A stretch of DNA of 64,000 nt from Mycolicibacterium cosmeticum (GTDB lineage: Bacteria; Actinomycetota; Actinomycetes; Mycobacteriales; Mycobacteriaceae). The stretch spans positions 868,001 through 932,000 of the forward strand of contig NZ_CCBB010000003.1 in assembly GCF_000613185.1 (NCBI RefSeq). The letters are read 5' to 3'. The notes beneath the pieces were generated by a model. It made no database searches and was not told the origin of the DNA. It saw only the letters and a program-made list of their open reading frames with translations. This document shows positions 28,820 through 44,056 of the stretch, one piece after another (the first letter of the stretch is position 1; each line of letters begins with the position of its first letter). The translations under genes were made by a program, and so were the position numbers.

Positions 28820-29689
28820 ATGGCACCCGTGGGTGCGATTACGTTGGACGGCAAGGCCACGCGCGACGAGATTTTCGTCGATCTCAAGCAGCGCGTCGCG
28901 AAACTGACCGAGGCGGGCCGGACGCCCGGGCTCGGCACGATCCTGGTCGGCGACGATCCGGGTTCGCAGGCCTATGTGCGCGGCAAGCACGCCGACTGCG
29001 CCAAGGTCGGCATCAACTCGATCCGCCGGGACCTGCCCGCCGACATCAGTCAGGCCACCCTCGACGAGACCATCGACGAGCTCAACGCCAACCCCGAGTG
29101 CACCGGCTACATCGTCCAGCTCCCGCTGCCCAAGCACCTGGACGAGAACGCCGCGCTGGAGCGCGTCGACCCGGACAAGGATGCCGACGGCCTGCACCCG
29201 ACCAACCTGGGCCGGCTGGTGCTCGGCAAAGAGGCGCCGTTGCCGTGCACCCCGCGCGGCATCGTGCACCTGCTGCGCCGCTTCGACGTGCCGATCGCCG
29301 GCGCGCACGTGGTGGTGATCGGCCGCGGGGTGACGGTGGGCCGCCCGCTCGGCCTGTTGCTGACCCGCCGGTCGGAGAACGCGACGGTGACGTTGTGCCA
29401 CACCGGGACTCGTGATCTGCCGGAGCTGACCCGGCAGGCCGACATCATCGTCGCCGCCGTCGGTGTGCCCTACATGGTCACCGCGGACATGGTGAAACCC
29501 GGTGCCGCGGTGGTCGATGTCGGGGTGAGCCGGGTGGAGGGCAAGCTGACCGGCGATGTCGCCCCGGACGTGTGGGACGTGGCGGGTCACGTGTCGCCCA
29601 ACCCGGGCGGGGTCGGTCCGCTCACCCGGGCGTTCCTGCTGACCAATGTGGTCGAGCGCGCCGAAATGGGCCTGAGTCAAACGCCATGA
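28820..29689 (+). CDS. folD: FolD methylene-tetrahydrofolate dehydrogenase/cyclohydrolase
   Basis: A 289-residue bifunctional enzyme that interconverts 5,10-methylene- and 10-formyl-tetrahydrofolate with NADP+. The catalytic Tyr and Lys are in AYVRGKH (Y52, K56), [14 protein letters not shown] and [16 protein letters not shown] line the folate site, [14 protein letters not shown] is the dinucleotide-binding loop and [18 protein letters not shown] is the C-terminal signature. The start is ATG 28820 or GTG 28829 (MGAITLDGK, closer to the usual N-terminus). The next gene overlaps its stop by four bases. Confidence 0.95.
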
Positions 29690-29988: not shown

Positions 29989-30009
29989 GCTGGTTCAGCG
30001 CTGGTTCAG
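29989..30009. repeat. Short direct repeat at the end of the DeoR gene
   Basis: GCTGGTTCAG occurs twice, at 29989-29998 and 30000-30009, separated by one base, between the convergent DUF3017 and DeoR genes; the second copy overlaps the DeoR stop codon. It marks the left boundary of the accessory sugar region. Significance unknown. Confidence 0.5.
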
Positions 30010-30791
30010 TGCTCGCCCGCGTCGACGACGTGTACCTGCACCCCGGCCGCGGTGATACGCGCCAGTTGATCGGGGTCGGCGGTGGAGTCGGTCACCAGAT
30101 GATGAATCTGGCTCAGCGGCACCATCTTTGCCAAGGTGACCTTGCCGATCTTGGAGCCGTCGACGGCGACCACCACGCGTTGGGCGTTGGCGGCCATCGC
30201 AATTGCGGTCCGGGCCTCGGCCTCGTCGAAGGTGGTGGCGCCCACCTCGGCCGACATGCCATCCGCGCCGAGAACCGCGGTGCCGACCGTGATCACCTGA
30301 AAGGCGTGCTCGGACATCGGGCCAACGGCCTCAAGCGAATTGCCGCGCACCACGCCGCCGGTCATGATCACCTTCATGTGCGCGTCGACGGCGCATTCGC
30401 CGGCGATGGTCAACGAGTTCGTGACGATGGTGATCTGGGGCCGGCCCCGTAACGCCTGGGCCACCTCGCCGGTCGTGATGCCCCCGGTGAGGGCGACCGC
30501 CTGCTGACCGGCGGGCACCAGCGCGGCGGCGTGCCGGGCGATCCGCCGTTTGATGGCGACCATCCGGTGATCGCGCAGTCGCACCGGGATCTCGGTGCTG
30601 CCCGGGTCGAGCGCCCGCGCGCCTCCGTGGGTGCGCACCAGCAGCCCCTGGTCCTCGAGCTCGGACAGGTCGCGGCGCAGCGTCGCCGCCGAGACGCGCA
30701 ATTCGGCGCACAGCACGTGCGAGGCGACCTCGCCGCGATCGTGCAACAGCGCCAGCACGGTGCGCATCCGGTCGGTCCGCTTCAGCGACAT
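30006..30791 (-). CDS. DeoR-family regulator of the sugar operon
   Basis: A 261-residue DeoR-type repressor. The N-terminal winged HTH is visible in DRMRTVLALLHDRGEVASHVLCAELRVSAATLRRDLSELEDQGLLVRTHGGA, with the family signature RRDLSELEDQGLLVRTHGG. The C-terminal domain is the sugar-phosphate isomerase-like sensor (VALTGGITTGEVAQAL, TIVTNSLTIAGECA, GADGMSAEVGATTFDEAEA), which usually binds a phosphorylated sugar. It is divergent from the aldolase operon and has direct repeats upstream, so it very likely represses the operon until a pathway sugar phosphate appears. The ATG at 30791 has GGAG upstream; longer in-frame extensions run into the operator region and are rejected. Confidence 0.9.
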   Translation of the reverse strand: MSLKRTDRMRTVLALLHDRGEVASHVLCAELRVSAATLRRDLSELEDQGLLVRTHGGARALDPGSTEIPVRLRDHRMVAIKRRIARHAAALVPAGQQAVALTGGITTGEVAQALRGRPQITIVTNSLTIAGECAVDAHMKVIMTGGVVRGNSLEAVGPMSEHAFQVITVGTAVLGADGMSAEVGATTFDEAEARTAIAMAANAQRVVVAVDGSKIGKVTLAKMVPLSQIHHLVTDSTADPDQLARITAAGVQVHVVDAGEH

Positions 30792-30815
30792 CGGTGGGGA
30801 CTCCTGGTTCGATGC

Positions 30816-30853
30816 GATCAGTTTTGTTGATCGTTTTGTGGATTCGTATTGCG
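30816..30853. promoter_or_regulatory. Direct-repeat operator of the DeoR regulator
   Basis: Two near-identical units, GATCAGTTTTGT (30816-30827) and GATCGTTTTGTG (30829-30840), are followed by a weaker third, GATTCGTATTG (30841-30851). The spacing of 12-13 bp and the GTTTTGT core are typical of DeoR-family sites, which are often direct repeats. The block is AT-rich in a GC-rich genome and lies between the divergent regulator and aldolase genes. Confidence 0.65.
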
Positions 30854-30921
30854 CGTGTTGAGCGAGCTTCTCATGATCGACGGATGTTCGACACGACTTC
30901 TCCCCGCTCGAGGATGACCCG

Positions 30922-31845
30922 GTGACCCTGGCCTCCACCGCGGCGCTCGTCGCCGCCGCCGGCAACAGGCAGGCGGCGGTCTTCGCGTTCAACGTCATCA
31001 CCATCGAGCACGCCGAGGGCATCGCCGAGGGCGCCGAGCGGACCGGTGTGGCGGTGCTGCTCCAGGTCAGCGAGAACACCGTCGGATTCCACGGCGGCCG
31101 GATCGCACCGCTGGTGTCGGCCTGCGCCCGGGTCGCGGAAGCCTCCGCCGTGCCGATCGCGGTGCACCTGGACCACTTTCAGGATCCCGGCCTGCTCGGC
31201 GAGGCCATCGACACCGCCACGACGCTCGGCGTCAGCTCGATCATGATCGATGCCGCCCACCTGCCGTACCGCGACAACGTCGAACGCACCAGGTCGTTCG
31301 CCGACGCCGCGCGCCGGGCCGGACTGTGGGTGGAAGCCGAACTCGGCGAGATCGGCGGCAAGGGGCAGGCCGGCAAGGGTCAGGCCGGCAAGAGTCAGGC
31401 CATGGTCAGCGCGCACACCGCGGGCGTGCGTACCGACCCGGCCGAAGCACTGGCCTTCGCCGAGCAGACCGGCGTCGACGGCCTCGCGGTGGCCGTGGGC
31501 AACACCCACGCGATGACCACCCGGGACGCCCACCTCGATATCGACCTCATCCGGCGGCTGGCCGCCCGCGTGCCGATTCCCCTTGTGCTGCATGGATCTT
31601 CGGGCGTGTCCGACGATCAGCTGCGCGCCGCCGTCGCGGCCGGGATGCGCAAGATCAACGTCGGCACCGCACTCAACGTCGGCTACACCGCCGCGCTGCG
31701 CCAAGCGCTGTCCGCCGACACCACCGGCACCGACCCGCGCCGCTACCTGAGCGCCGGACGGCAGGCCGTCGCCGACACCGTGGCCGCGCTGTGTGCCGAC
31801 GCGGCACCGCAGCCCGTCGGGGTCGGGGAGCGTGATGCGCGATGA
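30922..31845 (+). CDS. Class II ketose-bisphosphate aldolase (GatY/KbaY-like)
   Basis: A 307-residue zinc-dependent TIM-barrel aldolase. IAVHLDHFQD carries the metal and catalytic Asp-His, VEAELGEIGG the active-site loop, AVAVGNTHAM the second zinc His and VPLVLHGSSGVSD-like IPLVLHGSSGVSDDQL the third; phosphate binding is by MRKINVGTAL. Such enzymes split tagatose- or fructose-1,6-bisphosphate into dihydroxyacetone phosphate and glyceraldehyde-3-phosphate. The flexible loop after EIGG holds three copies of a 15-bp tandem repeat (31357-31401), giving GKGQAGKGQAGKSQA, which is not a usual family feature. First gene of the operon; GTG start behind GAGGA. It overlaps the GatZ-like gene by ATGA. 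Confidence 0.9.
   Translation: MTLASTAALVAAAGNRQAAVFAFNVITIEHAEGIAEGAERTGVAVLLQVSENTVGFHGGRIAPLVSACARVAEASAVPIAVHLDHFQDPGLLGEAIDTATTLGVSSIMIDAAHLPYRDNVERTRSFADAARRAGLWVEAELGEIGGKGQAGKGQAGKSQAMVSAHTAGVRTDPAEALAFAEQTGVDGLAVAVGNTHAMTTRDAHLDIDLIRRLAARVPIPLVLHGSSGVSDDQLRAAVAAGMRKINVGTALNVGYTAALRQALSADTTGTDPRRYLSAGRQAVADTVAALCADAAPQPVGVGERDAR
31357..31401 (+). repeat. Three 15-bp tandem repeats inside the aldolase gene
   Basis: GGCAAGGGGCAGGCC, GGCAAGGGTCAGGCC and GGCAAGAGTCAGGCC follow each other without a gap and keep the reading frame, adding GKGQA-type units to the loop that normally carries conserved residues near the active site. Copy number could vary by slippage. Confidence 0.9.
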
Positions 31846-33218
31846 GCGGGGGCACAGCGGCATCGCTCGGCACGGTGACCGGGGACATCAGCGACACCGC
31901 GCACTGGCTCACCGAGACGATCCGGGCACACAAGGCCGGCGCGCCGGTCGGCGCCTACTCGGTGTGCTCGGCACACCCGACGGTGGTGGCCGCCGCCATC
32001 GCGCAGGCCGCGGCCGACGGCAGTTATGTGCTCATCGAGGCGACGTCGAATCAGGTCGACCAGTTCGGCGGCTACACCGGACTGCGCCCCGCCGAGTTCC
32101 GGGACCTCGTCCACACCATCGCGGACCGGCAGGGTTTCGCACGGGATCGGGTGGTCCTCGGCGGTGATCACCTCGGACCCAACCGGTGGCAGCGTGAAAC
32201 CGCCGGTGCCGCAATGGCCAACGCCGAAGTTCTGGTGGCCTCCTACGTCGCGGCGGGCTACCGCAAGATCCACCTGGACTGCAGCATGTCCTGTGCCGAC
32301 GACCCCGCCGTGCTCTCCGATGACGTGGTGGCCGGACGCACCGCGCGGCTGCTGCGGGTGGCCGAGGACACCGTGCGCGATCTGGGGGCCGACGCGCCGG
32401 TGTACGTCATCGGCACCGAGGTGCCGGTGCCCGGCGGCGCCCACGAAACCCTGGACCACCTCACCCCGACGCCGGCCGACCGGGCCCGGCGCACCATCGC
32501 GGCGCACCGCGCCGCCTTCGCCGCGGCGGACCTGGCCGACGTCTGGCCCCGCATCATCGCCCTCGTGGTGCAGCCCGGGGTGGAATTCGACCATCTCAAC
32601 GTCATCGACTACCGGCGGGACGCGACCGCGGCGCTGCGTCATGTCCTCGACACCGAGGACCATCTGGTGTTCGAGGCGCATTCCACCGACTACCAGCGAC
32701 CCGCCCAACTGCGCGAACTGGTCGAAGATCACTGGGCCATCCTCAAAGTCGGGCCCGCGCTGACCTTCGCCATGCGTGAGGCGCTGTTCGCGCTCAGCCT
32801 GATCGAAGCCGAACTCGTTGCGCCGCAAGACCGATCCGGTCTGGTCGACGTCGTCGAGCGCCGGATGCTGGCCGAACCGGGCTACTGGCAGAGCTACTAC
32901 GAGGGTGACCCGGTGGCCCAGCGCACCGCGCGCCGGTACAGCTACAGCGACCGGTTGCGCTACTACTGGGCCGATGACGACGTCGAGACGGCCCGGCGCA
33001 CGCTGCTGGCCAACCTCGACCGCACCGGCATCCCGCTGCCGCTGGTCAGCCAGTTCCTGCCGGCCCAATACGAGCGGATCCGTTCCGGTGGCCTCACACC
33101 CGACGCCGAAGCACTCGTGATCGACCGGATACGGGATGCGTTACGGCCCTATGCCGCCGCATGCCGTGCCGCCCAAGACCATTCCCGCATCCTGACCCCC
33201 GGAGGTGCCGATGACTAG
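31842..33218 (+). CDS. GatZ/KbaZ-like tagatose phosphate protein
   Basis: A 458-residue protein of the GatZ/KbaZ family. The hallmark IEATSNQVDQFGGYTG is at residues 65-80, followed by LGGDHLGPNRWQ and KIHLDCSMSCADDP. In E. coli these proteins are described as non-catalytic subunits that stabilise the KbaY/GatY aldolase; in Agrobacterium a homologue was shown to be a D-tagatose-6-phosphate 4-epimerase. Either role fits here: it overlaps the aldolase gene by four bases, and the operon has no visible tagatose-6-phosphate kinase. The epimerase reading would give fructose-6-phosphate directly. Confidence 0.9.
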   Translation: MSGGTAASLGTVTGDISDTAHWLTETIRAHKAGAPVGAYSVCSAHPTVVAAAIAQAAADGSYVLIEATSNQVDQFGGYTGLRPAEFRDLVHTIADRQGFARDRVVLGGDHLGPNRWQRETAGAAMANAEVLVASYVAAGYRKIHLDCSMSCADDPAVLSDDVVAGRTARLLRVAEDTVRDLGADAPVYVIGTEVPVPGGAHETLDHLTPTPADRARRTIAAHRAAFAAADLADVWPRIIALVVQPGVEFDHLNVIDYRRDATAALRHVLDTEDHLVFEAHSTDYQRPAQLRELVEDHWAILKVGPALTFAMREALFALSLIEAELVAPQDRSGLVDVVERRMLAEPGYWQSYYEGDPVAQRTARRYSYSDRLRYYWADDDVETARRTLLANLDRTGIPLPLVSQFLPAQYERIRSGGLTPDAEALVIDRIRDALRPYAAACRAAQDHSRILTPGGADD

Positions 33219-34353
33219 CGCCCAGACCCAACCCACCGCCATCCCCGCACAGGAGGACGGCGGCGCCACCATCGTGGAGATCGGTCAGCAGCCAGACGCG
33301 TGGCGGGAGGTCGCCGGTACCGCCGCCGACGACGTCGCCACGTTCGTGCGCGGGATCGTCGAGCGCCCGGACGTGCGGATCGTGTTGACCGGTGCCGGAA
33401 GCTCGGCGTTCATCGGTGACATCGCGGCCCCGGCGCTGCGCCGGCACCTGCACCGCCGGGTCGAGGCCATCGCCACCACCGATATCGTCGCCGCACCCCT
33501 GGATCACCTCGAGCCGGACACCCCGACGCTGATGGTGTCGTTCGGCCGGTCCGGCAACAGCCCGGAGAGCCTGGCCACCACCGCTCTCGCCGACGACCTG
33601 GTCGCCGACGTCTGGCATCTGATCTACACGTGCGACCCGTCGGGTGCGTTGGCCCGCGCTCATCGCGGACGGCCGAACACGCGGACCGTTCTCATGCCGG
33701 AACGCACCAACGACACCGGGTTCGCGATGACCTCCAGCCTGACCTCGATGCTGCTGTCCTGCCTGCTCGATCTGGGACCGGCCCGGCGCGCCGAGGTCGA
33801 ATCACTGGCGCGGGCAGCCGAATACGTCGCCGGCCGGCAAGCGGAGATCCGCAGCCTGGCCCAGGCGAAGAAGCAGCGCTTCGTCTACCTGGGCAGCGGG
33901 CCGCTGGCCGGGCTTGCCCGGGAGTCGGCGCTCAAGCTGCTCGAACTCACCGCGGGTGAGGTCACCACGTACTTCGACTCCCCGTTGGGTTTCCGGCACG
34001 GGCCCAAGTCGGTGCTCGACGGTGACACCGTGGTGCTGGTGTACGTGTCCACCGATCCCTACACGCGCCGGTACGACTTCGACATCATCGCCGAGCTGCG
34101 CGCCCAACTCGGCCGCGACGCCGTGACGGTGATCAGCGCCGCACCCATCCCGCCGGAACTCGGCACGGCGGTCGTGCTGCCCGGGCTGGACGGCCTCGAC
34201 GATTCGCACGTTGCCGTGCCGTATCTGGTGTTCGCGCAATACCTGGCGCTGTTCACCGCTCTGGAACACGGCAAGACACCGGACAATCCGTTCCCCTCCG
34301 GTGAGGTCAGCCGGGTGGTCAAGGGCGTCACGATCCATCCCTGGGCCCGGTGA
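33211..34353 (+). CDS. AgaS-like SIS-domain aminosugar-phosphate isomerase/deaminase
   Basis: A 380-residue protein with two SIS domains: LTGAGSSAFIGDIA (about 59-71) with the phosphate loop SFGRSGNSPES, and YLGSGPLAGLARESALKLLELTAGEV (about 230-255) with DSPLGFRHGPKS. This is the AgaS pattern; AgaS of enteric bacteria converts galactosamine-6-phosphate to tagatose-6-phosphate and ammonia. The companion GatY/GatZ genes agree with that product. A glucosamine-type or other sugar-phosphate substrate is possible. ATG 33211 follows GGAGG and overlaps the end of the GatZ-like gene. Confidence 0.85.
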   Translation: MTSAQTQPTAIPAQEDGGATIVEIGQQPDAWREVAGTAADDVATFVRGIVERPDVRIVLTGAGSSAFIGDIAAPALRRHLHRRVEAIATTDIVAAPLDHLEPDTPTLMVSFGRSGNSPESLATTALADDLVADVWHLIYTCDPSGALARAHRGRPNTRTVLMPERTNDTGFAMTSSLTSMLLSCLLDLGPARRAEVESLARAAEYVAGRQAEIRSLAQAKKQRFVYLGSGPLAGLARESALKLLELTAGEVTTYFDSPLGFRHGPKSVLDGDTVVLVYVSTDPYTRRYDFDIIAELRAQLGRDAVTVISAAPIPPELGTAVVLPGLDGLDDSHVAVPYLVFAQYLALFTALEHGKTPDNPFPSGEVSRVVKGVTIHPWAR

Positions 34354-34359
34354 CCGGCG

Positions 34360-35346
34360 ATGGCGTGTTTTCTCGGGGTTGACGGTGGCGGTTCCAAGAC
34401 CGCGTTCGCGCTCATCGACGGAACCGGCGTGGTTCTCGCCAGGGCCACCGCACCGACGTCCTACTACTTCAACAGTTCCTCGGCCGACGCGGGCTTCCGG
34501 GCCGTCGAAGATGTGCTGACGCAAGGCGTCACCGACGTGTGCCGGCAGGCCGGGGTGGACGCCGCCGACATCGACGCCGCCTTTTTCGGTATCCCGGGTT
34601 ACGGTGAGGCCAGCGCCGACATCGCGCGGCTCGATGCGCTCCCGGCCCGCGTGCTGGGGCATGACCGCTACCGGTGTGACAACGACATGGTCTGCGGCTG
34701 GGCCGGCTCACTGGCCTGCCAGGACGGCATCAACGTCATCAGCGGTACGGGCTCGATGACCTATGGCGAGCGCCGCGGGGTCGGCCACCGCGTCGGCGGC
34801 TGGGGTGAGCTGTTCGGCGACGAGGGCTCGGCGTATTGGGTTGCCATCCAAGGGCTCAACGCGTTCAGCAGGATGAGTGACGGCCGGCTCGCACCCGGAC
34901 CGCTGCATGGGCTGCTGCGCGAACGGCTGGCCCTGGGTGCCGATCTGGACGCCGTCAGCCTGGTGATCGACCAATGGTCGGGCAACCGCGGTTCGATCGC
35001 GGCACTGGCCACCACGGTGTGCGCCGCGGCCCGCGCCGGCGATGCCACGGCGGCACGCATCCTGTCCGCCGCGGTCACCGAGCTGGTCGCCCTCGTCGAC
35101 ACGACCCGCACCCGGATCGGATTCGCCGACGGTGAGACGGTGCCGGTGTCCTACTCCGGCGGCATGTTCTCCGACCCGGATTTTCTCGCGATGTTCGTCA
35201 CCGCGCTGCGCGACCGGCCGGTGGCCTATGACCTGCGGCGCCCGCTGCTGGACCCCGCGGTGGGCGCCGCGCTCTACGCGGCCAGATCCAGCGGGCACGC
35301 GGTGAGTCCGCACCTGGTCGGCCAACTCCGCACGGCCACAGCATGA
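34360..35346 (+). CDS. BadF/BcrA-type sugar kinase (N-acetylglucosamine-kinase-like)
   Basis: A 328-residue ASKHA-fold kinase. The first phosphate motif is FLGVDGGGSKTAFALID (DGGGSKT at 8-14), the second NVISGTGSMTYG (about 127-138) with GGWGELFGDEGSAYW, and the adenosine motif SYSGGMFSD near the C-terminus. This pattern is shared by mammalian and bacterial N-acetylglucosamine kinases. In this operon it most likely phosphorylates the free amino sugar or galactose released by the GH4 enzyme. It starts six bases after the AgaS-like gene and overlaps the EamA gene region at its stop. Confidence 0.85.
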   Translation: MACFLGVDGGGSKTAFALIDGTGVVLARATAPTSYYFNSSSADAGFRAVEDVLTQGVTDVCRQAGVDAADIDAAFFGIPGYGEASADIARLDALPARVLGHDRYRCDNDMVCGWAGSLACQDGINVISGTGSMTYGERRGVGHRVGGWGELFGDEGSAYWVAIQGLNAFSRMSDGRLAPGPLHGLLRERLALGADLDAVSLVIDQWSGNRGSIAALATTVCAAARAGDATAARILSAAVTELVALVDTTRTRIGFADGETVPVSYSGGMFSDPDFLAMFVTALRDRPVAYDLRRPLLDPAVGAALYAARSSGHAVSPHLVGQLRTATA

Positions 35347-35363
35347 TCGAAGAAGGAAGACAG

Positions 35364-36302
35364 ATGACCGAGGTATCGTCCGGGCGGCGCGGCTGGATCG
35401 GCTACGCCACCCTCCTGGTGCTCTTCTGGGGCGTGTGGGGCGCGTTCTCCGCGCTGCCGGCCACCCGGTACGGCTATCCCGACGAGATGATCTACTGCAT
35501 CTGGGCGTTGACCATGATCATCCCCGCCGTGTTCGCGCTGCGGGGCGCCCGCTTCGACCGCAGCCCGCGCGCCGCGGTCTACGGATTGCTCATCGGCTTG
35601 ACGGGAGCCGGTGGGCAGCTGCTGCTGTTCCAGGCGCTCACCATGGGCCCGGCCTACCTGATCTTCCCGATCGTGTCGATCTCACCCGCGGTGACGGTGC
35701 TGATGGCGATGGTGCTGCTGCGCGAACGGATCACCGCGCTCGCGGCGGTCGGCCTGGTCGCCGCGCTGGTCGCCATCGTGCTGTTCAGCATCACCAGCGC
35801 CGAGCCGACCGGCTCGTCGGGTCCCTGGCTGGTGCTGGCCATCCTGATCTGCGTGGCCTGGGGCGTGCAGGCCTACTTCATGCGCAAGGCCGCGACGATC
35901 GGCGTGAACGACGCCACCACCTTCGGCTGGATGGCGATCAGCGCGATCGCCCTGATCCCGGTGGCGGTGCTCTCCATGGGCGGCATCCCGACCGGATTTC
36001 CTTGGCAGGCACCGGCATTGACGGCGATAACCCAGCTGCTCAACGCGGTCGGAGCGCTGTTCCTGGTGATGGCGCTGAGCCGGGGCAAGGCCACCATCGT
36101 CGCGCCCACCACCAACGCGCTGGCGCCCGCCCTGACCATCGTGGTGTCACTGGCCGCCTATCACACCCTGCCCACCCCGTACGGGGCGGCCGGCATCGTG
36201 CTTGCCCTCCTGGGTTCCACGCTGATGGTCTACAGCGACGAGAAGCGCGGTGACCCGTCCAGCGTGACACCCGCGACCGCGGACCTGAGGAGCCGGACGT
36301 GA
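35364..36302 (+). CDS. EamA-family (DMT) permease
   Basis: About 312 residues with ten predicted membrane helices in two repeated EamA halves, for example LIFPIVSISPAVTVLMAMVLL and KATIVAPTTNALAPALTIVVSLA; the conserved helix-end pattern with a charged residue after MVLLRERI is typical. DMT permeases move small metabolites, often outwards. Its place between the kinase and the glycosidase in an operon that already has an ABC importer is unusual: it might import or export a sugar, or relieve accumulation of an intermediate. ATG 35364 has AAGGA upstream; ATG 35343, which overlaps the kinase stop as ATGA, is also possible. Confidence 0.85.
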   Translation: MTEVSSGRRGWIGYATLLVLFWGVWGAFSALPATRYGYPDEMIYCIWALTMIIPAVFALRGARFDRSPRAAVYGLLIGLTGAGGQLLLFQALTMGPAYLIFPIVSISPAVTVLMAMVLLRERITALAAVGLVAALVAIVLFSITSAEPTGSSGPWLVLAILICVAWGVQAYFMRKAATIGVNDATTFGWMAISAIALIPVAVLSMGGIPTGFPWQAPALTAITQLLNAVGALFLVMALSRGKATIVAPTTNALAPALTIVVSLAAYHTLPTPYGAAGIVLALLGSTLMVYSDEKRGDPSSVTPATADLRSRT

Positions 36303-37609
36303 AACCCACCATCGTCATCATCGGAGCGGGCAGCGTCGAGTTCACCCGCGAGCTGCTCGGGGACATCCTGTCCTTCCCGGAGCTGCAAACCGTGCGGATC
36401 GTGTTGCACGACATCGACGCCGAACGACTGGAGACCGCGGAGGCGATCGCGCGGGCGACCGCGGACGCGGCCGGCGCCACCCCCGACGTGGTGGCCACCG
36501 TCGACCGGCGCCGTGCCCTCGACGGCGCCGATTACGTCATCAACGTCATCCAGGTGGGCATGCACCAGGCCACCGTGCGTGATTTCGAGATCCCGGCACG
36601 GTACGGGGTCAACCAGACCATCGGCGACACCATCGGCATCGGCGGCATCTTCCGCGGCCTGCGGACCTTCCCGGTACTGGCGGCCATCGCCAGGGACATG
36701 GAGCAGGTATGCCCGGACGCCTGGCTGCTCAACTACACCAACCCGATGGCCATGAATGTCACCTACCTGCACCACATCGCGCCGAGGTTGAAGGTGCTCG
36801 GGCTGTGTCACTCGGTGTACTGGACGATGGTCGGCCTGTGCGAGCTGATCGATGTGCCCTATGACCAGGTGTCGTACTGGTCGGCCGGCGTCAACCACCA
36901 GGCCTGGGTGCTGCGCTGGGAGCGCGACGGCCAGAATCTGTATCCCCAGTTGGATCAGCGCATCGCCGCCGACCCGGAACTGCAGCGCCGCGTGCGGGTG
37001 GACATGTACCGGCGACTGGGCTATTACCCGACCGAGACGAGTGAGCACTCCAGTGAGTACGTCCCGTGGTACGTCCGGCACCCGGCCGAGGTCGATCGGC
37101 TCCGCATCAACATCGGTCAGTACGTGTCCATCAGTGCGGCCAATCTCGCCGAATACCAACGCGTGCGTGCGGAATTGGCCGAGAGCCGGCCGCTGCCCAT
37201 CGACACCGGGTCCACCGAGTACGCACCCCAGGTGATCCACTCGCTGGAAACCGGTCACACCCGGGTCATCTCGGCCAACGTCGTGAACCAGGGACTCATC
37301 ACCAACCTGCCGGACGGCGTGGCCGTCGAGGTCCCCACCACGCTCGACGCGTTGGGTGCCCATCCGATGCGGGTCGGCGACCTGCCGCCGCAATGCGCCG
37401 CGCTGAACCGGAACTTCCTCGGACCCGTCGATCTGGCGGTCCGCGCCGCCGTCGACGGTGATCCACGCCTGGTGCGGGCGGCCGCGATGGTCGACCCGAA
37501 CACCGCGGCGACGCTGACCGTCGACCAGATCGGGGAACTGTGCAACGAGCTGACGGCCGCCCATGCGGCCTTGCTGCCCGAGCCGCTGCGGTCGCCGGTA
37601 TGGCCATGA
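36299..37609 (+). CDS. GH4 glycosidase, MelA-type alpha-galactosidase
   Basis: A 436-residue family-4 glycoside hydrolase. The NAD+ site is IVIIGAGSVEFTREL (5-19), then NYTNPM (145-150), the metal ligands Cys170 in GLCHS and His200 in GVNHQAW, and ETSEHSSEYVPWY. The sequence follows E. coli MelA through its length (SSEHFAEYTPW, GLIDNLPQG-like GLITNLPDG, DPNTAATL). GH4 enzymes use NAD+ and Mn2+ in a redox elimination mechanism and act inside the cell; the MelA branch hydrolyses unphosphorylated alpha-galactosides. Start GTG overlaps the EamA stop (GTGA). Alpha-glucosidase or alpha-N-acetylgalactosaminidase activity cannot be excluded. Confidence 0.88.
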   Translation: MKPTIVIIGAGSVEFTRELLGDILSFPELQTVRIVLHDIDAERLETAEAIARATADAAGATPDVVATVDRRRALDGADYVINVIQVGMHQATVRDFEIPARYGVNQTIGDTIGIGGIFRGLRTFPVLAAIARDMEQVCPDAWLLNYTNPMAMNVTYLHHIAPRLKVLGLCHSVYWTMVGLCELIDVPYDQVSYWSAGVNHQAWVLRWERDGQNLYPQLDQRIAADPELQRRVRVDMYRRLGYYPTETSEHSSEYVPWYVRHPAEVDRLRINIGQYVSISAANLAEYQRVRAELAESRPLPIDTGSTEYAPQVIHSLETGHTRVISANVVNQGLITNLPDGVAVEVPTTLDALGAHPMRVGDLPPQCAALNRNFLGPVDLAVRAAVDGDPRLVRAAAMVDPNTAATLTVDQIGELCNELTAAHAALLPEPLRSPVWP

Positions 37610-37674
37610 GAGCGGATGCCCACCCAGCAGATCCACCCACTCGTCCAGATGTCGCCAACAAAGGAGTGTCCACC

Positions 37675-38955
37675 GTGATCCGACACCGGCTGTGCATCGC
37701 AATGGTTGTCGTCCTCAGCTGTCTGCTGGCCGCGTGCGGGGGTGGGAGTTCGTCGTCGTCCGGCCCGATCGAGATCGCGGTGTGGCACGGTTATCAGGAC
37801 ACCGAAGGCGAGGTCTTCAAGAGCCTGATCGACCGGTACAACAAGGAGCATCCCGAGGTGAAGGTCAGTGAGCTGTACTCCAGCAACGACCTGGTGTTGC
37901 AGAAGGTGCTCACCGCGGTGCGGGGTGGCAGTGCCCCCGACGTGGCCTACATGTTCGGCTCGTGGTCGCCCAACATCGCCAAGATCCCGCAGGTCGTCGA
38001 CATGTCCTCGGTGGTGTCACAGCCGGAGTGGAACTGGCAGGACTTCTATCCGGCCGAACGCGAGGCGGCGACCGTGGGCGACAAGATCGTCGGTGTCCCC
38101 GCGCTGGTGGACAATCTCGCGATCGTCTACAACAAGAAGCTCTTCGCCGACGCCGGCGTCGCACCCCCGAGCCCGACCTGGACCTGGGACGATTTCCGTT
38201 CGGCCGCAGCCAAACTGACCGACCCCGCCAAGGGCCAGTACGGCTGGCTCATCCCCGCCGACGGCAGCGAGGACACCGTCTGGCACTACGTCCCGATGCT
38301 GTGGGAAGCCGGTGGCGACATTCTGTCCGCCGACCGTCAACACGCCGCGTTCAATTCCGAATCCGGTTCGCGCGCACTGACGGTGCTGCAGCAGATGGCG
38401 GTCACCGACAAGTCGCTCTACCTCGACACCACCAACGAGAACGGCCCTAAACTGATGAACAGCGGAAAGGTCGCGATGCTCGTCACCGGTCCGTGGGACC
38501 TGAGTCAGCTCTCCGATATCGAGTACGGCGTGCAGGTGATGCCCACCTTCGCCGGCTCGGCCGGTGCGCACCAGACCATCTCCGGCCCGGACAACTGGGT
38601 GGTGTTCGACAACGGCGACCGGCGCAAGCAGGCGGCGACCGACTTCGTCCGATGGTTGACCGCCCCCGAGCAGGTCAAGACGTTCTCGTTGGGCACCGGT
38701 GACCTGCCCACCCGGCAGTCCGTCGGCCAGGACCCGGCGTTCCGTCAGCAACTCAACGAAAAGCTCGACGGCAGTGCCACCTTCGTGGAGAACCTGGCCA
38801 ACGTGCGCAAGGTCAGGCCGGCGGTGGAGCAGTATCCGGCGATCTCCGAGGCGCTGGGGCAGGCCATCGTGTCGGTCATGCTCGGCAAGGAGCAATCCGC
38901 GGCCGCCCTGGACGCCGCGGCCCAAGCCGCCGACGCGGCCCTGGCCGGGAAGTAG
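37675..38955 (+). CDS. Sugar ABC transporter substrate-binding lipoprotein
   Basis: A 426-residue family-1 extracellular solute-binding protein. The signal peptide ends in lipobox LAAC (Cys21) followed by GGGSSSSS, a flexible tether. The mature part shows IEIAVWHGYQDTEGEVFKSL, VYNKKLFADAGV, WTWDDFRSAAAKL and AMLVTGPWDLSQL, typical of binding proteins for malto- and galacto-oligosaccharides or glycerol phosphates. GTG 37675 is chosen for its AAGGAG site eight bases upstream and the charged n-region MIRHR. It begins 65 bases after the GH4 gene, and supplies the specificity subunit of the importer. Confidence 0.92.
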   Translation: MIRHRLCIAMVVVLSCLLAACGGGSSSSSGPIEIAVWHGYQDTEGEVFKSLIDRYNKEHPEVKVSELYSSNDLVLQKVLTAVRGGSAPDVAYMFGSWSPNIAKIPQVVDMSSVVSQPEWNWQDFYPAEREAATVGDKIVGVPALVDNLAIVYNKKLFADAGVAPPSPTWTWDDFRSAAAKLTDPAKGQYGWLIPADGSEDTVWHYVPMLWEAGGDILSADRQHAAFNSESGSRALTVLQQMAVTDKSLYLDTTNENGPKLMNSGKVAMLVTGPWDLSQLSDIEYGVQVMPTFAGSAGAHQTISGPDNWVVFDNGDRRKQAATDFVRWLTAPEQVKTFSLGTGDLPTRQSVGQDPAFRQQLNEKLDGSATFVENLANVRKVRPAVEQYPAISEALGQAIVSVMLGKEQSAAALDAAAQAADAALAGK

Positions 38956-38963
38956 CGGCTGCG

Positions 38964-39854
38964 GTGATGGCCCTGCTCCGGCTGCGGCACTCGGACAGCG
39001 TGGCGGGCTGGACGCTGGTCAGCCCGGCGGCGGCACTCATCGGCGTCTTCGGTCTGCTGCCCGTGTTGATGTCGTTGGTGCTGTCGTTTCAGCACTCGGA
39101 TCTGCTCACGCCGGAGACGCCGTGGGTCGGGCTGGACAACTATCGCAAGCTGGCGCAGGACCCGGTATTCGTCGAGGCGATCAAGCACACCATCGTCTAC
39201 ACCACGCTGTTCGTGCCCGGCACGATGCTGGTCGGGTTGCTGGTCGCGGCGGCACTCAACCGCCCGTTGCGGTTCATGGCGGTGTACCGCACGGCCGCCT
39301 ACATCACGATGGCGGTCTCGACCATCTCGCAGGGCATCATCTTCCTGTGGCTCACCGACCGGGACTACGGCCTGGTGAACGCGGCGCTGAACGCCGTCGG
39401 CGCCCCGTCCCAGCCGTTCCTGGCCTCCCCGTCGCAGGCGATGTACGTGATCGTGGCGATGACGATCTGGGGCTGGACCGGATTCTCGGTCATCGTGTAC
39501 CTGGCTGCGCTGCAAGGAGTTCCGGCCGAACTGCACGAGGCGGCCGCGATCGACGGAGCGAGTGCCTTCACCCGGTTCCGCACCATCACGGTGCCGTTGC
39601 TCGGCCCGGCGAACCTGTTCCTCGTCGTCTGGCTGACCATCAACGCGCTGCAGTTGTTCGACGAGGTCTACGCCACCACGCGGGGCGGGCCGCTGCGGGC
39701 GACCACCGTCATCGTGTACTACCTGTGGGACCGCGCCTTCGTGCAGTTCGACGCCGGCTACGCCGCGGCGATGGCCTACGCGCTGTTCGTGGTCATCCTG
39801 GTGATCACCGCGATCCAATTCCGGCTCGCGCGTATGCACGTGTACGCCTCATGA
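38964..39854 (+). CDS. Sugar ABC transporter permease (UgpA/MalF type)
   Basis: A 296-residue inner-membrane permease with six hydrophobic segments. The cytoplasmic EAA loop that docks the ATPase reads ELHEAAAIDGASAFTRFRTITVP (about 188-210). It begins eight bases after the binding-protein gene (GTG 38964, or ATG one codon later) and ends in an ATGA overlap with the second permease, so the two halves of the channel are translated together. Confidence 0.92.
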   Translation: MMALLRLRHSDSVAGWTLVSPAAALIGVFGLLPVLMSLVLSFQHSDLLTPETPWVGLDNYRKLAQDPVFVEAIKHTIVYTTLFVPGTMLVGLLVAAALNRPLRFMAVYRTAAYITMAVSTISQGIIFLWLTDRDYGLVNAALNAVGAPSQPFLASPSQAMYVIVAMTIWGWTGFSVIVYLAALQGVPAELHEAAAIDGASAFTRFRTITVPLLGPANLFLVVWLTINALQLFDEVYATTRGGPLRATTVIVYYLWDRAFVQFDAGYAAAMAYALFVVILVITAIQFRLARMHVYAS

Positions 39855-40765
39855 CCGCCGTCCAGTCCCGCCCCGCGGCCGCACCGGCGCGGCAACCGGA
39901 TCCGGCGCCGCCGCGCCGGCGGTGGCGGTGGCGGCTGCCGTTCAGCCCGTGGCACCTGGTGCTCATTCCGCTGACCTTCCTGCTGCTGGTTCCGCTGCTG
40001 TGGATGCTCGTCACGTCGCTGGAGACCGAGGGGGAGGCCAACCGCTTCCCGCCGGTGCTGGTGCCCGAGCGGCCACGCTTCGAGAATTACGCCGAGGCCT
40101 GGTCCGCCGCGCCGTTCGGCCACTTCTTCGCCAACAGCGTCATGGTCACCGCGGTGGTGCTGGTCAGCAACCTCGTCGTCTGCAGCCTGGCCGGGTACGC
40201 CTTCGCCCGGATCCGATTCCTGGGCCGGGGTGCCCTTTTCGTGACGCTGATGGCCACGCTCATGGTGCCGTTCCAGGTCACCATGATCCCCGTCTTCCTC
40301 ATCGTCAAATGGTTCGGCGACAACGTGTGGGCCGGCCTGGGCATCGATCACATCGGGGCGTTGATGCTGCCCAATCTGGCCACCGCCTTCGGGATCTTCT
40401 TCCTGCGCCAGTTCTTCCAGACGGTGCCGGTGGAGCTCGAGGAGGCGGCGCGGGTGGACGGGACGTCGCGTCTGGGGGTGCTGTTCAAGATCGTCCTCCC
40501 GCTGTCGTTACCGGCACTGTCGACCCTGGCGGCGCTGACGGTGCTCACCTCCTGGAACGACTTCCTGTGGCCGTTGATCGTGATCACTTCCCAGGATCAG
40601 ATGACGATCCCGTTGGGGCTCAGCTACTTCCAGGGGGCGCATCGGGTGAAGTGGCCGTTGCTGATGGCGGCCAACGTGATGAGCCTGTTGCCGATGCTGC
40701 TGGTCTTCGTCGGTGCGCAACGGTATTTCGTGCAATCGGTGGCCAGCACCGGACTGAAGGGATGA
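39851..40765 (+). CDS. Sugar ABC transporter permease (UgpE/MalG type)
   Basis: A 304-residue permease with an Arg/Pro-rich cytoplasmic N-terminus (PAPPRRRWRWRLPF) and six membrane segments. Its EAA loop is ELEEAARVDGTSRLGVLFKIVLPLS (about 195-220). It is coupled to the first permease by a four-base overlap, and the ATPase gene follows after three bases. With its partner it forms the membrane channel of a CUT1-type importer. Confidence 0.92.
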   Translation: MTAVQSRPAAAPARQPDPAPPRRRWRWRLPFSPWHLVLIPLTFLLLVPLLWMLVTSLETEGEANRFPPVLVPERPRFENYAEAWSAAPFGHFFANSVMVTAVVLVSNLVVCSLAGYAFARIRFLGRGALFVTLMATLMVPFQVTMIPVFLIVKWFGDNVWAGLGIDHIGALMLPNLATAFGIFFLRQFFQTVPVELEEAARVDGTSRLGVLFKIVLPLSLPALSTLAALTVLTSWNDFLWPLIVITSQDQMTIPLGLSYFQGAHRVKWPLLMAANVMSLLPMLLVFVGAQRYFVQSVASTGLKG

Positions 40766-40768
40766 GCG

Positions 40769-41857
40769 GTGGCAGAAGTAGAGTTCCGTGACGTCAGCCG
40801 CCGATTCCCCGGCGGTGTACACGCCCTCAAAGGGCTGAATCTCACGGTGGCCGACGGGGAGTTCCTGATCCTGGTCGGACCGTCGGGTTGCGGTAAGAGC
40901 ACCGCGCTGCGCATGTTGGCCGGACTCGACAAACCCACCTCAGGGGAGATCCGGATCGGAGGCACCGTCGTCAACGACCTCACTCCCGGCCAGCGGGACA
41001 TTGCGATGGTGTTCCAGAACTACGCGCTCTACCCGCACATGTCGGTGTACCGCAACCTGGCGTACGGTCTGCGGCAGCGTCGCACGCCGCGCGCCGAAAT
41101 CGACCGCAGGGTGCGGGAAACGGCCGAGCTGCTGCAGATCACCGCGCTGCTGGACCGCAAGCCGGGGCAGTTGTCGGGCGGTCAGCGGCAGCGGGTGGCG
41201 ATGGGCCGGGCGCTGGTGCGCGAACCGCAGGCGTTCCTGCTCGACGAGCCGCTGTCGAATCTGGATGCCAAGCTGCGCAACCAGGTTCGCGGTGACCTCA
41301 AGCGGTTGCACCGAGAGGTTCCGGTGACCTCCATCTACGTCACCCACGACCAGGTGGAGGCGATGACGCTGGGGGACCGGCTGTGCGTGATGTCCGAGGG
41401 CGAGGTGCAGCAGATCGGCACCACCGACGATATCTACAACCGGCCGGCCAACACGTTCGTCGCGGCGTTCATGGGCAGCCCGCCGATGAACCTGATGCCG
41501 GGGGTGATCCGGTCCGGCCTGCTGCACATCGGTGGTGCCGAGGTGACGCCGGCGGCATCGGAGGACGGCCCGGTCACCGTCGGCGTGCGGCCCGAGCATC
41601 TGCAGCTGCACCGCCAGCGCGCGCCCGGCATGATGGCGGCGCGCGTCGACTTCGTCGAGCCCCTGGGCAGTCACGTACTGGTGACCGCCGTCGTCGGCAC
41701 CGGTGACGAACAGACCCGGGTGATCGCGCAGGCCCCGGCCGATACCGTGCTGGCACCGGGCACCGACATCGGTTTCGTGCTGCCGCCGGAGCGGACGTAC
41801 TTCTTCGATGCGCAGACCGGCGTCGCCCGACGGGACCGGGAACGCGTCGCGCTGTAG
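40769..41857 (+). CDS. Sugar ABC transporter ATPase (UgpC/MsmK/MalK type)
   Basis: A 362-residue CUT1 ATPase. Walker A GPSGCGKST (37-45), Q-loop FQNYALYPHMSV, signature LSGGQRQRVAMGRALV, Walker B AFLLDEPLSNLD and the switch His in VTHDQVEAM are all intact. The C-terminal regulatory OB-like domain follows (PVTVGVRPEHL). ATPases of this type can serve several importers, but here it completes the operon's own transporter. GTG start with AAGGGA upstream. It is the last gene of the operon: a new promoter and operator precede the next gene. Confidence 0.93.
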   Translation: MAEVEFRDVSRRFPGGVHALKGLNLTVADGEFLILVGPSGCGKSTALRMLAGLDKPTSGEIRIGGTVVNDLTPGQRDIAMVFQNYALYPHMSVYRNLAYGLRQRRTPRAEIDRRVRETAELLQITALLDRKPGQLSGGQRQRVAMGRALVREPQAFLLDEPLSNLDAKLRNQVRGDLKRLHREVPVTSIYVTHDQVEAMTLGDRLCVMSEGEVQQIGTTDDIYNRPANTFVAAFMGSPPMNLMPGVIRSGLLHIGGAEVTPAASEDGPVTVGVRPEHLQLHRQRAPGMMAARVDFVEPLGSHVLVTAVVGTGDEQTRVIAQAPADTVLAPGTDIGFVLPPERTYFFDAQTGVARRDRERVAL

Positions 41858-41907: not shown

Positions 41908-42531
41908 ATGGCAGCCGGACTGCGTGAACGCAAAAAGCTCGATACCCGCCGCGCTCTCAGCGACGCCGCGCTGGAACTGACCTTCAGGCACGGCCTGGAG
42001 AACGTCACCCGGGAGGACATCGCCCGGCTTGCCGGGGTGTCGCTGCGCACCTTCAACAACTACTTCACCGGTAAGTACGAGGCGCTCGCCTACCGGCAGA
42101 CCGAGCGGTTACGCCGCAGCATCACCGAACTACGCGCGCGTCCGGCCACCGAACCCCTGTGGACGGCAATCACCGAATCCGTGCTACTCCCGCTGGAGCA
42201 GGATTTCGCCGACGCCGGGCCTGAATCCGGTGTGCCCACCCGCGAGGAACTCCTCGAGGTCCGAAAACTGTTGATGAGCCCAGAGGTTCGTGGGGCCGTG
42301 GGCAAGGCGTTGCTCGAGGAGTGGATCGCGGTGATCGCCGAACGCACCGGCACCGACCCGCATACCGACATGTACCCGCGGCTGGTCGCCGGTGTGGTGC
42401 ACGCCGTCGGCGACGCGGCCGCCGACGCCTACGCGAAGGCAGACCCACCGGTCGCCTTTCCGCAGCTACTGCGGCAGGGATTCGCGGCCGTCGCCGCCGG
42501 TCTGGCCGACCCGGAGAGCAGTCGTGGCTGA
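41908..42531 (+). CDS. TetR/AcrR-family regulator
   Basis: A 207-residue regulator. The N-terminal HTH is LRERKKLDTRRALSDAALELTFRHGLENVTREDIARLAGVSLRTFNNYF, the standard TetR layout, with SLRTFNNYF as recognition helix. The C-terminal domain is variable (SPEVRGAVGKALLEEWIAVIAERTG). The monooxygenase gene starts inside its 3' end, so repressor and enzyme share a transcript. The typical function would be repression until an aromatic or drug-like inducer binds. Confidence 0.9.
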   Translation: MAAGLRERKKLDTRRALSDAALELTFRHGLENVTREDIARLAGVSLRTFNNYFTGKYEALAYRQTERLRRSITELRARPATEPLWTAITESVLLPLEQDFADAGPESGVPTREELLEVRKLLMSPEVRGAVGKALLEEWIAVIAERTGTDPHTDMYPRLVAGVVHAVGDAAADAYAKADPPVAFPQLLRQGFAAVAAGLADPESSRG

Positions 42532-44056
42532 GCCGGTGGTGATTGCCGGCGCAGGCCCGAACGGCCTGATGCTGGCCTGCGAACTGGCGCTGGCGGGTGT
42601 GCGGGCGGTGGTGCTGGACCAGCTCCCCGGGCCCAGCTCCGAGCCGAAGGCCAACGGGCTTGTCGGCCAGGTCATCCGCCAACTCGACATGCGCGGCCTC
42701 TATCACACGTTCGGTGGCGAGGGCGGCCCCCCGAAGCCTTCCGCGGGTTGGATGTTCGCCGGAATGGCGCTGAGCTTCCTTGGGCTGCAGGACAACCCGA
42801 TGTACGCCTTGCTGGTGCCGCAACCACGGCTGGTGCGCCTGCTGGAACGGCGGGCCCACGAGCTCGGGGTGGACATCCGGTGGGGCCATGCACTCACCGA
42901 TTTCCGACACACCGACGACGAGGTCACCGTGACCGTGCGCGCGCACGGCCGTTCTTACGAACTGACCGCCCGATACCTGGTCGGCGCCGACGGTGGCCGC
43001 AGTACGGTGCGCAAGAACCTCGGCGTCGGCTTCACCGGCCACACCTCCGACATCGTCAGCAGGATCGCCCACGTGCACCTGCCCGAGCACCTGCTGGTGC
43101 CTGGTCGCGGCTATGAAGTGCCGGGTTTCGGGCTGCTGCCGTTCGGCTACAGCAGGTTCGAGCGCGGCTCGATCGTCGTGTTCCCGCTGGAACCCCACCG
43201 TCCCATGGTGGGCACCGTCGAATACGGCTGGACCGTCGGCAGCTCGGCAAGCCCCATCTCACTGGATGAGCTCCGGGACAGCCTGCGGCGCATCCTCGGT
43301 GTCGACGTTCCGCTGGAAGCGCCGAGGAAGCCCGGGGAGCATGCCCTGCGCCGGCTCGACGGCATCAACACCCGCCAGGCCGAGCGCTACCGGGTGGGCC
43401 GGGTGCTGTTGCTCGGCGACGCGGCGCACGTGCATTCGCCGATGGGTGGTCCCGGCTTGAACCTCGGTATGCAGGACGCCGTCAACCTGGGGTGGAAACT
43501 GGCCGCGGCGGTCAACGGCTGGGCGGGTGACGCCCTGCTGGACAGCTACCACAGCGAGCGGTATCCGGTGGGGGAGCGAGTGATGATGCACTCGATGGCG
43601 CAGCTGGCACTCGCCGCGCCTGGACCTGAAGTCGCCGCGCTGCGAACACTTTTCGCCGAGCTGGTCGGCAAGCCCGCGGTGGCTGCCCACCTCGCCGGGC
43701 TGCTGGCCGGCTCCGACGTCCGATATGACGTCGGTGACGACCATCCGCTGGCCGGCCGGATGGTGCCCGACGTGACCCTCGACGATGGCCGGCGGGTCGC
43801 CGACCTGCTGCACGAGGCGCGGCCGGTGCTGCTCGACCTGTCCGGTGGCGTACTCGACGTGACGGGGTTGCCGGACCGCGTCAACGTGGTGACCGGTGCA
43901 TGCGCAGCAGCGCCCGCGGCGCTCCTGCTGCGGCCCGACGCTTACGTCGCTTGGGCAGCCGACACTGTCGACGCGGCAGCGGCCGGCGCTCTGGCGGCGG
44001 CGACGGCCCGCTGGTGCGGTCAGCCCAGCGTCGCGCGGATACCCACCGTCACATAG
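42524..44056 (+). CDS. FAD-dependent aromatic-type monooxygenase
   Basis: A 510-residue flavoprotein of the p-hydroxybenzoate hydroxylase group. FAD dinucleotide motif VVIAGAGPNGLMLACELA (5-22), the DG motif VGADGGRSTVRKNLGV (about 150-165) and the GD motif RVLLLGDAAHVHSPMGGPGLNLGMQDAVNLGWKLAA (about 300-335) are intact. The C-terminal about 110 residues form the thioredoxin-like tail without its redox cysteines. Relatives hydroxylate phenols, polyketides or rifamycins; the substrate here is not known. The GTG at 42524 follows GGAGAG and overlaps the TetR stop by eight bases. The 3' end overlaps the convergent methyltransferase by 37 bases. Confidence 0.88.
   Translation: MAEPVVIAGAGPNGLMLACELALAGVRAVVLDQLPGPSSEPKANGLVGQVIRQLDMRGLYHTFGGEGGPPKPSAGWMFAGMALSFLGLQDNPMYALLVPQPRLVRLLERRAHELGVDIRWGHALTDFRHTDDEVTVTVRAHGRSYELTARYLVGADGGRSTVRKNLGVGFTGHTSDIVSRIAHVHLPEHLLVPGRGYEVPGFGLLPFGYSRFERGSIVVFPLEPHRPMVGTVEYGWTVGSSASPISLDELRDSLRRILGVDVPLEAPRKPGEHALRRLDGINTRQAERYRVGRVLLLGDAAHVHSPMGGPGLNLGMQDAVNLGWKLAAAVNGWAGDALLDSYHSERYPVGERVMMHSMAQLALAAPGPEVAALRTLFAELVGKPAVAAHLAGLLAGSDVRYDVGDDHPLAGRMVPDVTLDDGRRVADLLHEARPVLLDLSGGVLDVTGLPDRVNVVTGACAAAPAALLLRPDAYVAWAADTVDAAAAGALAAATARWCGQPSVARIPTVT

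Follow-up and report, generated by a model that had tools for sequence, protein, structure and literature searches.

What sugar feeds a mycobacterial operon in which a glycosidase, a complete importer, and enzymes of tagatose-6-phosphate metabolism stand together behind one repressor? The locus that raises this question lies at positions 30006 to 41857 of a 64,000-nucleotide stretch (here called the window) of the 6.46-Mb genome of Mycolicibacterium cosmeticum (contig NZ_CCBB010000003.1). Ten same-strand, mostly touching genes (30922-41857) follow a divergent DeoR-family regulator, and profile searches bore out the original prediction that they encode GatY-, GatZ-, and AgaS-like proteins, a sugar kinase, a glycoside hydrolase family 4 (GH4) enzyme, and a full CUT1 importer. 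The one structural gene left unnamed in that prediction encodes an EamA/DMT transporter. The operon is a real, conserved, and coherent catabolic unit. Our reading, which we judge somewhat better than an even bet, is that it serves the DeoR-controlled catabolism of alpha-linked galactosamine oligosaccharides; the substrates and reactions named below are predictions from sequence.

Conservation of the unit was evaluated in 198 genomes of the genus, where a strong kinase match (E value below 1e-130) was found in 32. All of these loci except that of genome G261, which sits at a contig end, were fetched (31 loci), giving a sample in which the kinase is present by construction. DeoR, GatZ, and AgaS accompany it in 31 of 31; the GH4 enzyme, permeases, and ATPase were detected in 26 loci, EamA in 26 (by profile match), and GatY in 25, and one solute-binding protein missed by the profile (L132) is nonetheless present. 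The palindrome GATCAGTTTTNNTGATCG, at up to three mismatches, is present in 38 of 38 DeoR-GatY intergenic stretches and in none of 760 single-base shuffles; some of the 38 may come from one species counted both as named and as unnamed. Retention of the three genes in every kinase-fetched locus and of the operator in every stretch argues that the gene set goes beyond chance. Within the window genome, the palindrome has one exact site, upstream of GatY, and two 2-mismatch sites elsewhere. The regulator is 31% identical to Escherichia coli AgaR over 253 amino acids and scores under the NCBIfam AgaR cutoff (162 versus 260 bits).

The AgaS-like protein aligns with E. coli AgaS over its full length (378 amino acids) at 45.5% identity, keeps the SIS Glu and His motifs, and matches PDB entry 3c3j with an E value of 1.4e-90; its TIGR02815 score, 450 bits, is below the cutoff of 529. 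E. coli AgaS is a proposed, genetically supported galactosamine-6-phosphate deaminase, and mutants lacking agaS are reported to grow no longer on N-acetylgalactosamine or, in the case of E. coli C, on galactosamine (PMC3668189). Top-scoring solved relatives of the BadF-type kinase include the N-acetylmuramic acid (MurNAc)/N-acetylglucosamine (GlcNAc) kinase 8zo3 (the best), hexokinase 2e2n, and NAGK, and we regard the protein as a probable galactosamine kinase.

Deamination by AgaS would leave tagatose-6-phosphate, the fate of which turns on GatZ. This protein exceeds the TIGR02810 cutoff (631 versus 569 bits), reaches neither the KbaZ nor the GatZ equivalog cutoff, and is 60% identical to E. 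coli KbaZ. The original study of Agrobacterium galactitol use is said to have identified GatZ as a tagatose-6-phosphate 4-epimerase. In the accessible text of a further study, GatZ proteins are tagatose-6-phosphate/fructose-6-phosphate 4-epimerases, and tagatose formation in E. coli lacking gatZ is restored by kbaZ and not by gatY, kbaY, or fbaA (PMC11907403). All six E. coli GatZ metal ligands and substrate residues given in that text (C20, E44, H88, E171, H257, and K279) are kept in the window protein, as C42, E66, H110, E193, H280, and K302. The GatY-like protein, by comparison, is 34% identical to E. coli GatY, fails the tagatose-bisphosphate aldolase model TIGR01858 (188 versus 443.55 bits) and all 20 listed aldolase models, and is missing from 6 of the 31 genus loci, each of which keeps GatZ (a count made within the locus, not across the rest of those genomes). 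The kept residues, the reported complementation, and the loci with GatZ and without GatY lead us to suggest that tagatose-6-phosphate probably goes straight to fructose-6-phosphate via GatZ. A two-subunit tagatose-bisphosphate aldolase made of GatY and GatZ is unlikely, since no tagatose-6-phosphate kinase is present among the ten operon genes, GatY is missing from those six loci, and GatZ proteins are reported to be epimerases (PMC11907403). The GatY-like protein also contains a repetitive insert, GKGQAGKGQAGKSQA (window 31350-31410), that both E. coli GatY and KbaY lack, and it shares only about 53 to 69% identity with its relatives in the genus.

The GH4 enzyme, whose AlphaFold model has the GH4 fold (pLDDT confidence 92.7), is 81 to 89% identical to the other strong genus copies and 39.5% identical to E. 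coli MelA. Strong matches were found in 3 of 201 genomes of the family, most of them from other genera, and all three belong to the same genus. In a FastTree phylogeny rooted on one Paenibacillus sequence, the actinobacterial GH4 proteins form one clade (support, 0.99) apart from the MelA group (support, 0.98). At 31 positions, a residue kept in at least 90% of 104 clade members is absent from five MelA-type proteins; these positions include S251 as well as W175, Q201, and W203, which lie near the conserved CHSV and Asn-His motifs (Q201 and W203 beside His200). At two of the 31, R231 and H314, rhizobial GH4 proteins carry the same residue. To our knowledge, no exo-alpha-1,4-galactosaminidase activity has been assigned to GH4, and no description of a GH4 galactosaminidase came up in searches of an open-access library that covers few subscription papers.

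Additional GH4 genes were noted along the way. The window genome holds a second, distant one (C1:1035096-1035782; L002 and L008) that is 29% identical to the first, and eight other genomes of the genus have matches of this distant kind. Five loci of Nonomuraea and Thermocatellispora (L040, L048, L060, L065, and L068) have a second GH4 gene, 48 to 50% identical to that of the window; the two GH4 genes are divergent in orientation and flank a DeoR-type regulator (c27).

The neighborhoods of related GH4 genes outside the mycobacteria point to a polymer as the source of the sugar. A scan of GH4 relatives yielded 590, of which the best 80 were kept (9 mycobacterial and 71 nonmycobacterial), so that the counts describe nearest relatives only; some of the 71 loci are close kin (three Lentzea, many Streptomyces), and gene order was taken from an open reading frame caller with custom family profiles. 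A GH114 gene was found in 29 of the 71, from 11 named genera (Actinoallomurus, Umezawaea, Actinocrispum, Streptomyces, Hamadaea, Nonomuraea, Lentzea, Embleya, Actinacidiphila, Amycolatopsis, and Kribbella) and one metagenome-assembled genome. These 29 loci hold 30 copies. The first GH114 profile had been built from the linked proteins themselves, and the assignment was repeated with Pfam on 29 copies (that of L037 was left out), all of which match PF03537. All but one of the 30 are no more than 1 kb away from a core gene (measured on stop-to-stop frames), and in many Streptomyces loci GH114 directly precedes the solute-binding protein gene. By comparison, any GH114 gene is present in 79 of 246 genomes of the class, mostly at one copy per several megabases; by a rough estimate from this background, a random 21-kb stretch would include one in well under 1% of cases. 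In both the linked GH114 protein of L049 and the single GH114 of the window genome, part of the sequence matches the endo-alpha-1,4-polygalactosaminidase 6oj1. According to a recent report, few enzymes of GH114-related families have been characterized, and of the proteins tested only one was active on Pel (PMC12054363), so that the activity of the GH114 members considered here is itself a prediction. Linkage of the core to a predicted secreted, polymer-cutting enzyme in other genera nevertheless suggests a polymer outside the cell.

The same loci suggest that the steps after GH4 may be interchangeable. Among the 71, a PfkB-type kinase (PfkB6) occurs in 49, a short SIS protein (SIS11), whose best named model is the glucosamine-6-phosphate deaminase GlmD at a score far below cutoff, in 35, GatY in 29, and a LacC-like kinase in 19. 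Three pairs never occur together in 113 loci (the 80 GH4 loci, the 31 kinase loci, and 2 further mycobacterial GH4 loci, with species overlap between the sets): AgaS and SIS11, BadF kinase and PfkB6, and GatZ and the LacC-like kinase. Within the fetched stretches, 22 of 71 have neither BadF kinase nor PfkB6, and 51 of 71 have neither GatZ nor the LacC-like kinase. Four loci, from three Lentzea and one Amycolatopsis (L044 to L046 and L081), combine GH114, PfkB6, SIS11, the LacC-like kinase, and GatY with GH4 and the importer. In two mycobacterial loci (L014 and L017), AgaS and the BadF kinase are replaced by SIS11, GatZ, and GatY alongside the same GH4-importer part. Plasmids of Rhizobium leguminosarum and Pararhizobium encode a GH4 protein (43 to 44% identical) together with DeoR, BadF kinase, a solute-binding protein, two permeases, a SIS protein, GatZ, and UgpC; no GatY is annotated in either of these two stretches.

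In light of these associations, we propose the following pathway. Cleavage outside the cell of galactosamine polymers, such as fungal galactosaminogalactan or bacterial Pel, would yield short chains, which the CUT1 importer (37666-41857) would take up. Inside, the GH4 enzyme would remove galactosamine from the nonreducing end by the nicotinamide adenine dinucleotide (NAD)-dependent elimination that is the mechanism of its family, the BadF kinase would convert galactosamine to galactosamine-6-phosphate, AgaS would deaminate this product to tagatose-6-phosphate, and GatZ would epimerize the latter to fructose-6-phosphate, with GatY in an accessory role. EamA would probably pass free galactosamine in or out. 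We put at about even the chance that GH114 products feed the window GH4 and that it acts as an exo-alpha-galactosaminidase. The broader proposal falls a shade short of that: the GH4 clade as a whole would be intracellular exo-alpha-1,4-galactosaminidases, and the operon would be the intracellular half of a modular galactosamine-polymer system in Actinomycetes and rhizobia, with GH114 outside and interchangeable kinase, deaminase, and tagatose-6-phosphate modules inside. The route originally predicted, from import through GH4 cleavage, phosphorylation, and deamination to glycolysis, survives in this scheme, with comparative genomics favoring galactosamine over plain galactose; its link to wall recycling is not supported.

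Several observations weigh against the galactosamine-polymer interpretation. The one GH114 gene of the window genome (C3:2463800-2464456; L150), which encodes a probable lipoprotein by its lipobox and lies near a contig end, shares the operon's contig at a distance of about 1.55 Mb and lacks the operator, and GH114 is present in 0 of the 31 genus kinase loci, that of the window included. In favor of the reading, GH114 was found in 23 of 198 genomes of the genus and is more frequent where GH4 is present (13 of 29 genomes with GH4 versus 10 of 169 without; Fisher P = 4e-7), but the support is weak because kinship and genome size are uncorrected. Of 40 class-level GH114 stretches sampled from 87 listed sites, several of them ending at contig ends, only one includes the GH4 core, so that GH114 genes in general do not go with this operon system. 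Neither AgaS nor SIS11 is present in 35 of the 71 nonmycobacterial loci, and 19 of the 29 GH114-linked loci lack SIS11, in fetched stretches that are sometimes short and with genes that may sit elsewhere. Two rhizobial GH4 proteins fall within the MelA group of the tree; should these proteins also act on galactosamine, the activity would span more than one clade. Finally, without a deacetylase in the operon, acetylated residues would need another enzyme.

Shared control of the window genome's GH114 gene by the operator was considered and rejected: no site with three or fewer mismatches is present at the GH114 locus, the other genomic sites lie elsewhere, and coregulation was dropped on these grounds. 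A search of the genus for GH135/Spherulin4 gave no match, but neither did its positive controls. GH36 has one strong match in the 198 genomes, too rare to serve as a control or as a test of rival explanations. No recurring glycosidase or Leloir gene appeared among the 25 commonest of 118 neighbor families (88 of 211 neighbors; loci L018 to L057).

A rival explanation would be a plain alpha-galactoside route, in which a raffinose-type sugar is imported and cut by a MelA-type GH4 enzyme, and a kinase yields galactose-6-phosphate that a SIS isomerase turns into tagatose-6-phosphate for GatZ. The GH4 protein itself speaks for this route and against galactosamine: it passes the PRK15076 alpha-galactosidase model (564 bits versus a cutoff of 486) and keeps the CHSV motif (C170, H171, S172, and V173) of E. 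coli MelA, a mark of GH4 alpha-galactosidases. Likewise, AgaS relatives in the PDB bear the older name tagatose-6-phosphate ketose/aldose isomerase. However, the growth defects of E. coli agaS mutants described above concern amino sugars, and the GH114 linkage and the placement of the window GH4 in a clade apart from MelA also speak against this route. Among MelA loci with a clear galactoside setting, the melR-melA-melB loci of E. coli and Klebsiella have no annotated SIS protein or BadF kinase (within a few kilobases, from plasmid tables that may be incomplete), and in Enterococcus faecium a GH4 gene lies beside a second alpha-galactosidase with neither a SIS protein nor a BadF kinase annotated in the few kilobases fetched. 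We therefore consider the alpha-galactoside route unlikely.

Less probable still is a route for N-acetylgalactosamine glycosides, in which GH4 would free the acetylated sugar, the kinase would form N-acetylgalactosamine-6-phosphate, and a NagA-like enzyme encoded elsewhere would deacetylate it ahead of AgaS and GatZ. The solved kinase relatives, which include MurNAc/GlcNAc and GlcNAc kinases, are consistent with an acetylated substrate, and a NagA-like gene does exist in the genome (C3:1343423; 220 bits, just under the NagA cutoff of 225.65). Profile searches found no N-acetylgalactosamine-6-phosphate deacetylase among the ten operon genes, however, and GH114 enzymes are expected to act on deacetylated stretches (PMC12054363). 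A Gfo/Idh/MocA protein encoded beside some of the GH4 genes might be a GH109-like alpha-N-acetylgalactosaminidase; of its 80 PDB matches, the best 60 include none named as a glycosidase. Recycling of the alpha-galactosamine that decorates mycobacterial arabinan, raised in the original prediction, is very improbable, because the operon is patchy (32 of 198 genus genomes) and occupies varied insertion sites, has related loci in Streptomyces and Rhizobium, and has its core linked in other genera to a predicted secreted GH114 enzyme.

Compared with known systems, the proposed galactosamine pathway is a known kind in a new form. The E. coli aga/gam cluster (agaR, kbaZ, agaS, and kbaY) likewise has a DeoR-family regulator divergent from kbaZ, together with an aldolase and with AgaS and KbaZ proteins 45.5% and 60% identical to those of the window, but it relies on the phosphotransferase system (PTS) for uptake and phosphorylation, whereas the window operon has an ATP-binding cassette (ABC) importer, a BadF kinase, EamA, and an intracellular GH4 enzyme, lacks a deacetylase, and includes no PTS protein among its ten genes by profile search. 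The N-acetylgalactosamine pathway of Shewanella (AgaP, AgaK, AgaA-II, and AgaS) resembles it in joining a non-PTS permease, a kinase, and AgaS, but takes up the monosaccharide and, in the portions of the two reports available, has no glycosidase or ABC importer (PMC2996990, PMC12118421). The Agrobacterium galactitol pathway uses a GatZ-type protein to convert tagatose-6-phosphate to fructose-6-phosphate, by the accessible text of PMC11907403, for a substrate that is a polyol and not an amino sugar. MelA shares the family, the CHSV motif, and the PRK15076 model with the window GH4, from which it differs in identity, clade, the 31 clade-specific positions, and gene neighbors. The GH114 endo-alpha-1,4-polygalactosaminidases (Ega3 and relatives) are the family of the gene linked in 29 of the 71 related loci; the single copy of the window genome stands outside the operon.

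Enzymes that cut the cationic galactosamine polymers galactosaminogalactan and Pel from outside have been studied against biofilms. Searches of the open-access library turned up no description of a bacterial uptake pathway for galactosaminogalactan pieces. If correct, our reading would add a substrate class to GH4, explain why GH114 genes lie beside sugar importers in Actinomycetes, support GatZ as a tagatose-6-phosphate sink in amino-sugar breakdown, and point to fungal or bacterial matrix as a food source of some soil-type mycobacteria. The enzyme activity may be new, and the proteins are directly testable.

Variation within the genus bears on how the sugar enters. Among the 31 kinase loci, 21 have both EamA and the GH4-importer part, 5 have EamA only, 5 have GH4 and the importer only, and none has neither; EamA matches are present in all five loci that lack GH4 and the importer, in one of them (L147) as two pieces. 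This distribution suggests that the free sugar probably has EamA as an alternative route into or out of the cell. In L145 and L148 the GH4-importer part is inverted, and a second copy of GATCAGTTTTNNTGATCG, with three mismatches, lies directly 5' of GH4. Flanking genes of the operon differ between genome groups, placing it at several distinct genomic sites; the island has thus changed place or undergone exchange on several occasions. Genome G208 has the AgaS-kinase core without GH4 at one site and a GH4-SIS11-importer locus at another (L177 and L147), an arrangement that looks like two operon types split and combined.

Coordinates of the operon and its neighbors are given in Table 1. Four of the junctions are 4-base overlaps, GatZ and AgaS overlap by 14 bases as called, three gaps measure 3 to 8 bases, and the largest gap, 56 bases, separates GH4 from the solute-binding protein gene.

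Table 1. Features of the proposed galactosamine operon and its surroundings (window positions)
Feature	Coordinates	Strand	Remarks
folD	28820-29689		Upstream neighbor of regulator and operon
DeoR/AgaR-like repressor	30006-30791	-	Divergent; PF00455 and PF08220
Conserved palindromic operator GATCAGTTTTNNTGATCG	30816-30833	+	Intergenic, DeoR-GatY
GatY-like class II aldolase	30922-31845	+	PF01116, E value 4.5e-76
GatZ/KbaZ-like, probable tagatose-6-phosphate 4-epimerase	31842-33218	+	PF08013, TIGR02810
AgaS-like galactosamine-6-phosphate deaminase/isomerase (predicted)	33205-34353	+	SIS/AgaS; start possibly 33211
BadF-type sugar kinase, probable galactosamine kinase	34360-35346	+	PF01869, E value 4.8e-51
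EamA/DMT transporter, candidate monosaccharide permease	35343-36302	+	PF00892, two repeats
GH4 NAD-dependent glycosidase, proposed exo-alpha-galactosaminidase	36299-37609	+	PF02056 and PF11975; CHSV motif
CUT1 solute-binding lipoprotein	37666-38955	+	PF01547, E value 2e-40; lipobox LAAC in translation
CUT1 permease A	38964-39854	+	PF00528
CUT1 permease B	39851-40765	+	PF00528 in enclosing frame; family profile match
UgpC/MalK-type ATPase	40769-41857	+	PRK11650, 455 bits (cutoff, 432)

Other genes near the GH4 relatives and the operon deserve mention. In Actinomadura madurae (L041, 5341-9722), two probable secreted proteins with GH64 (beta-1,3-glucanase) and GH3 domains, each also carrying F5/8 type C domains, are encoded beside GH4, which fits a diet of fungal cell wall. 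A probable secreted protein of about 550 to 590 residues (cluster 32) recurs in four GH4 loci (e.g., L018, 7941-9701, and L041, 11293-12939), and its L041 copy matches no Pfam family. Just 3' of the window operon (41908-44056) are genes for a TetR-type regulator, the C-terminal domain of which is of MftR type, and for a flavin adenine dinucleotide (FAD) monooxygenase, whose best named model, far below cutoff (364 versus 800 bits), is rifampin monooxygenase.

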